Of a stretch of DNA of 64,000 nucleotides, positions 25,260 through 28,525 are shown piece by piece. The notes under the pieces were generated by a model that did not search any database, was not told where the DNA came from, and saw only the letters and a program-made list of their open reading frames with translations. This DNA is from Rugalucina vietnamica (Eukaryota; Mollusca; Bivalvia; Lucinida; Lucinidae): assembly GCA_964017185.1 (NCBI GenBank), contig OZ024869.1:8020501-8084500 (forward strand), in the 5' to 3' direction. The position numbers were made by a program, and so were the translations under genes. How positions within the stretch are numbered: the first letter of the stretch is position 1; the number at the start of each line of letters is the position of its first letter.

Positions 25260-25327
25260 CAGACAAGAAGCTCCGGCCCCAACCAACTAAAATGAATAGC
25301 TTTAAGTCGGGGCCATCATAGAGTCTG
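25260..25327 (-). promoter_or_regulatory. Candidate SECIS element overlapping the stop codon
   Basis: Read on the minus strand: a lower helix CAGAC/GTCTG; the core ATGA (25319-25316) opposite GGAG (25274-25271); then ten continuous pairs GGCCCCGACT (25314-25305) with GGTTGGGGCC (25284-25275), two of the closing pairs G-U; then an apical loop beginning TAAA. The spacing ATGA-N12-AA fits the eukaryotic SECIS consensus. The TAA stop of the Naiad frame is 25304-25302, so the stop codon provides the AA of the loop. Confidence 0.65.
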
Positions 25328-28300
25328 ACGCCCGACCCACCGGCGTGCAATTAAAGAAGGCAGCATAGTTATCAACCATAATTGGGTTAAAAACTAAGCA
25401 TGCAGACTGTCGCATAACATTCAAGTTATAACCTATACGTCTGTAACGTGATATGATTTTTCCGAACTGAAGAGAAAAATCATTTATTCCTTTAAGTTTC
25501 TTTAATTTGTAAACCAAGTCACCATAAAATTCAGGTTCCGAAAGGCCCTCACTTAAAAGTGTCTTTAACCCAACATTATATTTGGAAATCAATTCATAGT
25601 GTCTACGATAAAATTTAGAAAAGGTTTTTCGAAGTTTATGATACCGATAGCCCTGTTGGAGAAGTTTTGCCGTTAAACATTTATTTCGAGCGTTGAAGTC
25701 TGTAACATGATTGCAGACTCTAGCAAACCTAATAAGTTGCGAAATGTATACACCATAAGAAGCACGACGAGGAACGTCACCATCCAAAAAAGGAAAATTT
25801 ACTATATCAAAATCAAAGTCATCGCGCTTATCATAAATTTTAGAAGAAACAAATCCATTTGCAACAGAAAGATGTAGATCTAAAAAGGGGGCTTCGGTAT
25901 CTGAGATATTAGCTTTGTTCAACTGAAGTTCAGGTGGATAAATTTGATTGACCATACAGGGTTGTCAATGTTCAAAAGGTCATCGAGGTACCTAGATGTG
26001 GAATTAAAAGCCTCGATAACATCAGCTTGATTATCATGGTTAAGAGAATCCATGAAATCTCTTTCGTAGCAGTATAAAAATAAATCAGCTACGAGAGGTG
26101 CGCAATTTGTACCCATCGGAATTCCAACAATTTGTCTGTATAACTTGGTCCCAAATCTAATATAAATATTATCAAGGAGATAGGATAAGGCGTCGCACAC
26201 ATTCTGACATGACCAAAGGGTATACCGACTTTGGTCAGAGGAAGTGAAAAAAGCCTTTCTGTCATTACATGCCAAATAAAGTGAACCATAGTTTTTTAAT
26301 GCCCTTTTGAAGGTCCACTCTATCAAATCCAGAAGTTTTTCTTTAATTAGATTATGTGGTAATGTTGTATACAGAGTAGAAAAATCATATGTGGACAAGC
26401 TTGTCGCACGGAACCCTCTACACTTCAATTTACTGAGCACCTCACCAGAATTTTTTATTGACCAAAACAAATTTTTATTTGAAGTTTCATACACTGTCTC
26501 ACAGTATCTTATAACATGAGATTTGATAGCAGTAAGACAAGAAGTTAATAATTTAGAAAGTTCAGTGGTAGTACAAGAGCTAGAATTTGCAATAAATCTA
26601 GCTTTGTATGGTCTTTTGTGAAGCTTAGGTAACCAATACATCGTAGGAAGTTTGTCTTGGCCTTCATTGACACAAACAGAAAACTTAACAGGTAAATCGT
26701 TTAAGTGGGCATTTACTACAGACACCTCATCAGTATCTGTCTCCAGATAAGCCCTGGTACCATCAAGCTCCTGTTTTAAGGTGTTGACGTAGTGAAGTCT
26801 ACAAACGCCAACAACATTGTTTGCGGCTTTATCTGCCGGAACCAAGACATACTTTCTATGAAATTCTTGGATACCCTGCTTCAAATGCCTAAATGACGAT
26901 TTGGGTTTAGGAGGTAAAAGATTAGTATTTTGTGAATAAAACTTAATACGTTTATCCACGATAGTGAAGATACTTCTTTTCCATTCTTTAAGAGCATTAT
27001 CCTCAACACCCTCTCGTTTACACCATCGATTACCGAAATCATTTAATGCAGATGCAATCTCCTCTCTATATTTGTCGAAATTAATGTAGGAAGGGAATCT
27101 ATATTTCGGACCTTTAGAAACAATTTTGCGAATTCTAGAATCCGAAATTATTTTTAAATTTCCAGTAACTATATGTCCAGCTGGTTGATAAACATATTTT
27201 GAATCTTTACAATCTCAAGACTTAGGAGTATTAGCATGGATATCAAGATCAGAAACAAGTTTATTGAAATTAAAAATAGTATTTCTGATTGGTGTGTTAT
27301 ATTTGTAACAAATAATAGGAGGTTCTGAATTTTGGAAGTAGGTAGGTATAGACTGTATCACTGATTTATCCTGGAATATGCTTGGTAAATCAATAAAGTC
27401 AATTCCTTTATTGATGAAAGGAATTTTAATAAAACTTCTAATGTGATTAGATTCGGAATCGATAAATGGACGAAGAGCATGCTGAGTATAACATCTTGTT
27501 AACAGTGCAGCGTCATACATTTGATGATTTCTATCGTAAAATCTATTAGCCTCTGTGTCCAGGGAACGTAATGCAGCAATAGGTAGAGAACTAAGATAAG
27601 ACAGCATTGGATGTCGACCGTGAATCCTTAGTTTAACAGCTAAATCATTAAGGGAAATGTTCAATTTCAATGCAGCGCACCGTTTACGTTTGTCATTACC
27701 CCTTTTCCGTATACCATGAGATCTAGATTTACGTTTACGAGACTCTGAAAGTGTAAGTACATCAAAATCGGGCATTTTGGAAATATTGCCTTCATGGTAA
27801 ATGTTGTCGTTAAATCCCAGTGGAAAGGGTGTTTGCAGTAATTTTATCCATTTAAGTTCAGTTTCAAATCGTTTAATATTTTTGAATCTAACTGAAGAAT
27901 TTTCATCATATGAGATTTTCTCCACTGGTTGAACTTTAACATCATTGGGAGAATGACCAGTGCGCTTAAAATGCTGGTACAGAAAGGTATCATTATTTTT
28001 GGGCTTTCTGATTCTACGATAGTGCTCACCAAATCGTTTTTGCAAAGTTCGACAAGTTTGTCCAACATATTGCATCCTACAATTGTTTGTATTTCAAGTA
28101 AGAACATATACAAGATCCATTGATTTTCAGTCTAAATCAGAATCATTAACCACTGAAAATGTCCTACCATTCACAGATGAAGTGATAGTAGTCTTAGAGC
28201 ATAAATGATTGCAACAGTTGCACTTCTTGGCATTGCACTTAGAAATACTAGGGTACATTCCAGGTCTCTTGAACGGATTAATATATTTACGTAAAATTGG

Positions 28301-28525
28301 TGATTTGAGTGGAGATAACCTAATCTGAAGATTATTACGAAACATATTAGAATTAGAAGCTCCGTGTAGATTAACAGTAGATGCCGAAAATAAATTAAGA
28401 GGTGTCACCCTAACAGTAGGTAATAAATTTTGAAAATTGTTAGTTGAATGAGGAATCCGTACAGTAGACGCGGCATGCAACCTAAGGGGAGTTAATGTAA
28501 TTCCTAATCTTTTTGTGATAGTCAT
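25302..28525 (-). CDS. Naiad polyprotein: GIY-YIG nuclease and reverse transcriptase, three in-frame TGA (probable selenocysteine)
   Basis: ATG at 28523-28525 is the first in the open frame. A Cys-rich finger (KCNAKKCNCCNHLC) covers about residues 112-125. The GIY-YIG nuclease spans about 138-200 (VYVLT, QYVGQT, LQKRFGEH, LYQHFKRTGH). A basic linker follows, then the CxC linker and PAGHIVTGNL. The reverse transcriptase has YDFSTLYTTLP (motif A), GIPMGTNCAPL (motif B) and YLDD (25979-25990). The only stops before YLDD are TGA at codons 133, 144 and 437, each at a family Cys. One small indel near 25955 shifts the frame just after NIDNP. The rest (QIYPPELQLNKAN to SMMAPT) is open to TAA. The copy is thus slightly damaged but otherwise well preserved. 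Confidence 0.85.
27215..27217 (-). other. In-frame TGA in the CxC linker
   Basis: The context is PKS-TGA-DCKDSKYVYQPAGH. Naiads carry a characteristic CxC motif at this place, so TGA stands for its first Cys. Read as selenocysteine, the motif becomes UxC, a redox- or metal-type pair. Confidence 0.75.
28094..28129 (-). other. Two in-frame TGAs beside the GIY-YIG core
   Basis: TGA at 28127-28129 (context DSDLD-TGA-KSMDL) and at 28094-28096 (VYVLT-TGA-NTNNC). In Penelope-type nucleases both positions usually hold the Cys residues of the zinc-binding CCHH-type finger around the GIY strand. Confidence 0.75.

Follow-up and report, generated by a model that had tools for sequence, protein, structure and literature searches.

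Three in-frame UGA codons of an abundant Naiad-type retroelement family in Rugalucina vietnamica very probably specify selenocysteine

Results

An element copy with three in-frame TGA codons and a broken frame

The window (the whole 64-kb stretch of DNA that was analysed) carries on its minus strand, to which all element coordinates in this section and the following ones refer, one copy of a Naiad-type Penelope-like element of ~4.17 kb (24679..28845). Its edges were set from other loci: at 28845 and 24679 the alignment of most of the 29 other loci from the genome starts and ends, and these loci are 98-99.5% identical to the window copy. The first part of the open reading frame (25958..28525) starts at an ATG (28525-28523) and encodes an N-terminal cysteine-rich and GIY-YIG-like region, a CxC-type linker and most of a telomerase-like reverse transcriptase (RT), as far as the RYLDD motif. 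An initial annotation of this DNA had pointed to a long frame interrupted by TGA alone, and a recount agrees with it: the 856 codons contain exactly three TGA and neither TAA nor TAG, while ~41 TAA or TAG codons would be expected in 856 random codons at the base composition of the window.

Three features went beyond that account, namely a break in the frame near 25958, a SECIS element over the end of the ORF and a fourth site of interest (26803-26801). At the break, a frameshift within the RT, the remaining 220 C-terminal codons pass into another frame (25302..25964), which ends ...SDSMMAPT followed by a TAA stop codon (25302..25304). The window copy is dead because of this frameshift. The copy is broken and the element family is not, as intact copies exist.

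The order of parts is that of the Naiad clade

Members of the Naiad clade of Penelope-like elements have an N-terminal GIY-YIG endonuclease ahead of a telomerase-like RT, a CxC motif in the linker and a tandem arrangement with pseudo-LTRs; they are not known to carry a hammerhead ribozyme. The window protein itself gave no Pfam hit at E 0.01, and no PDB chain was found by sequence at E 0.1. Relatives were detected at ~35% identity, one of which (P0012) aligns over 87% of the query and contains the Pfam domains GIY-YIG at 107-195 and RVT_1 at 625-826. An AlphaFold model built with cysteine at the TGA sites (mean pLDDT 76.6, pTM 0.57) was submitted to Foldseek, where all 10 PDB matches with E <= 0.001 were telomerase, with low TM-scores of 0.18-0.24 by query length, and where no GIY-YIG entry appeared among the best 50 of 176 matches. 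Elsewhere in the genome, head-to-tail neighbours with ~51 nt between units were observed, for example L016 and L020, and the SECIS spacing in L005 was 4229.

Taken together, the homology to GIY-YIG and RVT_1 proteins, the telomerase-like model and the tandem copies argue for a Penelope-like element whose parts follow the Naiad order. The GIY-YIG region comes first (by homology), followed by the CxC linker and the telomerase-like RT; the units occur in tandem; and no hammerhead ribozyme was found at gathering score in the window. Homology thus backs the Naiad architecture originally proposed for the locus, as does the resemblance of the model to telomerase, which is weak but consistent.

The TGA codons fall on cysteine columns of related proteins

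Counted from the ATG, the TGA codons correspond to residue 133 (U1, 28127..28129), residue 144 (U2, 28094..28096) and residue 437 (U3, 27215..27217), with only 10 codons between U1 and U2. In Cys-type relatives U1 is a cysteine, U2 is the first cysteine of a CxxC motif next to a two-residue insertion, and U3 is the first cysteine of the CxC linker, a motif that reads UxC in the window protein. The fourth site (26801..26803) is TGT (Cys) in the window copy and is W or the protein end in many relatives.

The window protein was aligned by MAFFT with 26 Cys-type relatives. Site 1 was cysteine in 19 of the 20 relatives with a residue there (the other having W), site 3 in 25/25, and the fourth site in 24/25 (one V); the probability that two random codons would both hit the 18 columns with at least 70% cysteine is P = 0.0004. 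At site 2 the two-residue insertion shifts U2 off the first cysteine of CxxC in this alignment, whereas pairwise BLASTP places it directly on cysteine, which was present in 22 of the 23 relatives below 50% identity that have a residue at this position. The initial observation that the TGAs stand at conserved cysteines holds for sites 1 and 3, and for site 2 it holds in BLASTP, with an offset of two residues in the MAFFT alignment.

The same three TGA codons are kept across genomic copies

The genome searched comprises 1,089,854,562 bases in 47 contigs. In a score-ranked search, which is biased to good copies as the best 50 of 18388 candidates were scored, 49 of 49 places besides the window copy had three TGA and no TAA or TAG. 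Among the 29 other loci that were fetched, TGA was found at residues 133, 144 and 437 in every one, and 24 were open across 1077 codons. A quality-blind sample was also obtained, by matching the flanks of site 3 exactly and leaving the codon itself free; this pattern matched 974 times and its reversed control 0 times. Among the 100 matches listed of these 974, the site 3 codon was TGA in 97, TGT in 2 and TCA in 1, with L067 (TGT) and L068 (TCA) being two of the three exceptions. The first 30 of the 100 constitute a position-ordered sample, which includes the window copy as L041. Here, TGA was present at U1 in 15/15 and at U2 in 15/15 covered copies and at U3 in 29/30, while the fourth site was TGT in 27/27 covered copies. 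Other in-frame stops in these 30 copies amounted to 9 TGA, 9 TAA and 5 TAG in 20784 codons.

The initial annotation had predicted that copies would keep TGA at the three codons and accumulate mixed stops elsewhere, and both patterns were observed. It had also named TGT or TGC at these codons as evidence to the contrary; TGT was seen in only 2 of the 100 listed matches at site 3, next to the single TCA and to TGG in L069. The copies are ~99% alike, so the conservation of TGA among them partly reflects recent shared descent. The family is young and very abundant in this genome.

Two relatives were used as further queries. With the Cys-type protein P0017, all 51 places scored in the window's own genome, of 11816 candidates, belonged to the three-TGA family, and thus no close Cys-type family surfaced among these 51 places. 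With P0003, 58 places were recovered at 73-74%, of which 55 had one TGA, 2 had two TGA and 1 had TAA; since the identity reached only 73-74%, P0003 does not come from the genome of the window. The TAA-bearing match (L069) was set aside as a decayed copy, having TGG at U3 and its TAA at another position.

Purifying selection extends past the TGA codons

Selection was gauged against a neutral ratio of nonsynonymous (N) to synonymous (S) changes of 3.06, with transitions weighted twice. Across the 24 open copies the distinct differences were 52 nonsynonymous and 83 synonymous, or 0.20 of neutral. When changes recurring in two or more copies within the position-ordered sample were counted, the segment after site 3 showed 14 N to 41 S (0.11 of neutral), that between sites 2 and 3 showed 11 to 24 (0.15) and that before site 1 showed 1 to 5 (0.07). 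Purifying selection continues downstream of the TGAs. Before site 1, counting every distinct difference gives 10 N to 5 S in the open copies (0.71 of neutral) and 35 to 15 in the position-ordered sample (0.83), and this weak constraint speaks against a uniform picture of selection.

A SECIS element spans the stop codon

A SECIS element overlies the last coding codons and the stop codon (25260..25327; Rfam RF00031, SECIS_1; 39.0 bits, cut-off 35), and it is the sole one in the 64-kb window at gathering score. Around it lies a long basal stem (25240..25345), the 5' arm of which encodes the protein C-terminus and the RNA fold of which has -62 kcal/mol (z -7.46, with 0 of 200 shuffles equally stable). 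The AUGA quartet falls in the codons for ...SMMAPT and the UAA stop codon in the A-rich apical part; the quartet deviates from the Rfam consensus on its 3' side. Because the element overlaps the coding end, the last codons have a dual role, in RNA structure and in protein sequence. From its position, the SECIS would lie downstream of the UGAs on the same RNA.

Among 18 loci searched, drawn from the 29 other copies (L004-L032), the element scored above the cut-off in 15, and L006, L009 and L010 fell below it with one change each in the SECIS region. Its presence in the window copy and in these 15 of 18 loci is in line with the suggestion that a selenoprotein is encoded. Across 44 copies the SECIS region occurred in 14 distinct versions, 22 copies being identical to that of the window, and the copies are too alike for covariation to be assessed.

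Sec-type proteins (P0003, P0008 and the ORFs of L004-L032) appear to have a C-terminal extension of ~75 residues, estimated by eye, that reaches into the SECIS; the full-length Cys-type proteins compared (P0011-P0031) end before it and are shorter at the C-terminus than the window family by that length. A 95% identical fragment elsewhere in the window (9041-8389) keeps the SECIS stem but lacks the apical region that holds the A motif; no Rfam match was found at this fragment at gathering score.

The host genome encodes tRNA-Sec

The tRNA-Sec model identified two genes with a TCA anticodon (79 and 71.2 bits, cut-off 47). A further 22 matches lay below the cut-off, and L065, the one that was checked, is a tRNA-Ser. 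The model also matched in 14 of 14 control genomes, exceeding the cut-off in 5; as it matches all controls, only the two matches over the cut-off are counted. The host tRNA-Sec recommended for verification at the outset is therefore represented by two genes.

Relatives from other sources end at, or print tryptophan at, the same sites

Three protein searches yielded 266 clusters, the last two contributing the best 120 of 225 and the best 120 of 445. The C-terminus could be placed in 195 of the 266 and not in the other 71. Among the 195 placed, the last residue lies immediately ahead of site 1 in 100 clusters, of site 3 in 10 and of the fourth site in 43, and any other end position is shared by at most 3 clusters. 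The length limits of the third search select for short proteins but do not dictate the exact end.

For the 146 clusters from searches one and two, the residues present at the sites were counted by identity class. At site 3, relatives of 70-90% identity had W in 17 of 20 (the others being one S, one L and one C), those of 50-70% had C 38, W 12, S 2 and R 1, and those below 50% had C 24, P 3, W 1 and D 1. At the fourth site, relatives of at least 90% identity had C 11, F 1 and Y 1, and those of 70-90% had W 22, C 11 and L 1. The W would most simply represent TGA that a gene caller translated with table 4. That it is a real tryptophan was considered and rejected, as it falls on cysteine columns and the DNA here is TGA, an argument that is carried over by analogy to the other sources.

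A divergent group of 42 clusters was chosen by 47-60% identity and a length of <430 residues. All but one of them (P0130), thus 41 of 42, combine a protein end immediately ahead of the fourth site with cysteine at site 3; members of the group start after site 2, except for P0114, which has cysteine at site 2. The window family thus has TGA, TGA, TGA and TGT at the four sites, and the divergent group has cysteine at site 3 and the protein end at the fourth. Judging by these states, lineages seem to change between Sec-like and Cys one site at a time.

No relative was found in viral contigs by two protein scans and one DNA pattern. Cys-type Naiad-like loci were present in two bacterial MAG records (L001 and L002; a Flavobacteriales MAG and a Bathymodiolus symbiont MAG) and are probably animal contamination. 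L002 covers the fourth site only. L001 is an open frame of 1013 codons with no in-frame TGA, and no SECIS above the cut-off was found in it.

Discussion

The sequence evidence points to a recently amplified Naiad-type Penelope-like family in which three UGA codons are, we are confident, decoded as selenocysteine under the direction of a 3' SECIS element. The original suggestion of a multi-selenocysteine protein stands for the family, given the conserved TGAs, the SECIS and the tRNA-Sec, and does not stand for the window copy, which is frameshifted. According to the model, the ORF would yield one protein of 1077 residues only if all three UGAs were decoded as selenocysteine by the host machinery, their recoding being directed by the SECIS hairpin with which that RNA ends at its 3' side. 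Selenocysteine would replace cysteine at positions of the nuclease and the linker that serve metal binding or redox chemistry. The GIY-YIG part would nick DNA and the telomerase-like RT would prime reverse transcription at the target, a process expected to leave many 3'-end fragments and tandem units, while failed recoding would give a fragment of 132 residues.

Reading of the UGAs by a near-cognate tRNA (Trp or Arg), or their suppression, without selenium and with the SECIS-like hairpin in some other role such as template recognition, is very unlikely. It could draw on the W printed in so many relatives, if table-4 translation were not the simplest source of that letter; however, the sites are cysteine columns rather than tryptophan or arginine columns, the SECIS exceeds a curated cut-off, and individual sites seem to alternate between UGA-like and Cys states among lineages. 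Exceedingly improbable is a scheme in which the TGAs are purposeful ends of separate short proteins, a 132-residue N-terminal protein being followed by downstream parts made by reinitiation. Gene callers do predict such pieces in large clusters, and an ATG soon after U2 is where the 286-residue pieces P0144 and P0135 begin (MQYVGQ), but the GIY-YIG-like region would be cut through its core and the RT fingers at the fourth site, U1 and U2 are separated by no more than 10 codons, and Cys-type relatives, including the open frame of L001, are continuous across the sites. Decay, in which the TGAs would be plain nonsense mutations of an inactive element, as the frameshift of the window copy and the 23 other stops scattered over 30 sampled copies might suggest, is refuted in practice and has hardly any probability left, because the same three TGAs recur in 29/29 other loci, stops elsewhere are mixed in type and purifying selection acts on the frame past the TGAs, in addition to which a SECIS is present.

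If the three UGAs are indeed decoded as selenocysteine, a further proposal can be made, although we rather doubt it as a whole: that jumping of the element is gated by selenium. Without three selenocysteine insertions only the 132-residue fragment would be made, so that retrotransposition would track the selenium status of the host, and lineages would switch between selenocysteine and cysteine independently at four sites under a single SECIS that contains the stop codon and also codes for the C-terminus.

Multi-selenocysteine Naiad Penelope-like elements have reportedly been found in clams and spiders by Craig et al. in 2021 (Mol Biol Evol 38:5005). On that account, the present family resembles those Naiads in its GIY-YIG-like N-terminus, CxC linker and RT after them, in UGAs at cysteine positions and in a very high copy number. 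Such elements were accordingly known before, and what is described here is a well-supported further example, possibly the published family itself. In our literature search, no paper on selenocysteine-encoding Penelope-like elements was among the matches listed.

The Cys-type relatives (P0011-P0037 without P0015 and P0020; L001) share the order of parts at ~31-39% identity. By BLASTP they nearly always have cysteine at the four sites where these are covered, the exceptions being W at site 1 of P0025 and P or D at site 3 of four relatives. They differ from the window family in that no UGA was seen in them, L001 having one open frame and no SECIS above the cut-off.

Several selenocysteine codons on one invertebrate mRNA are also said to occur in molluscan selenoprotein P, with up to 132 UGAs (Baclaocos and colleagues, 2019). 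Selenoprotein P is a host protein of selenium transport, in contrast to a mobile element. A SECIS within a coding region was reportedly described for fowlpox virus GPx4 by Mix and colleagues in 2007. Two papers place the SECIS of this gene in the coding region (PMC8310308; PMC6769590). The likeness lies in a SECIS in or over coding sequence, whereas fowlpox GPx4 is a captured host antioxidant gene in a virus and the present case concerns a retroelement's own enzyme, with three UGAs and a SECIS that spans the stop codon. Tandem Penelope-like elements are treated in PMC11167929.

The family is of interest because the spread of this mobile element apparently relies on the selenocysteine machinery of its host, and because its very numerous copies within a single genome serve as replicates. 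These copies allow direct tests of why selenocysteine is kept at metal-binding or redox cysteine positions, of recoding at multiple UGAs per RNA and of selenocysteine/cysteine exchange in evolution, and the SECIS over the stop codon offers a useful case of dual-use sequence.

Other features of the window

A bHLH exon (Pfam HLH), presumably the host's, lies at 11181-11630 on the minus strand; by motif we take it to be PTF1A-like. Remnants of DDE_Tnp_4 and Transposase_1 (mariner-type) transposases are found at 23564-24100 and 36351-36824, and a tRNA-Ile (AAT) gene at 22050-22125, all on the minus strand. A 40-bp repeat forms large arrays with strong GC skew at 50724-54912, 56128-58210 and 59827-63508.

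The 64 kb contain 17 further matches to the element, 79-98% identical and all to its 3' part. In addition to the fragment at 9041-8389 described above, they include 37056-37673, 15559-16131, 40530-40195, 2183-1870, 4836-5128, 12580-12917, 10612-10357, 36133-35810, 3184-2926, 14121-14294 and 22353-22289, among others. Compared with the open frame, the window copy (L041) and L047 both have 10 alignment gaps and the same end point; if both go back to one deletion, proteins supplied by another copy may have mobilized a dead one.
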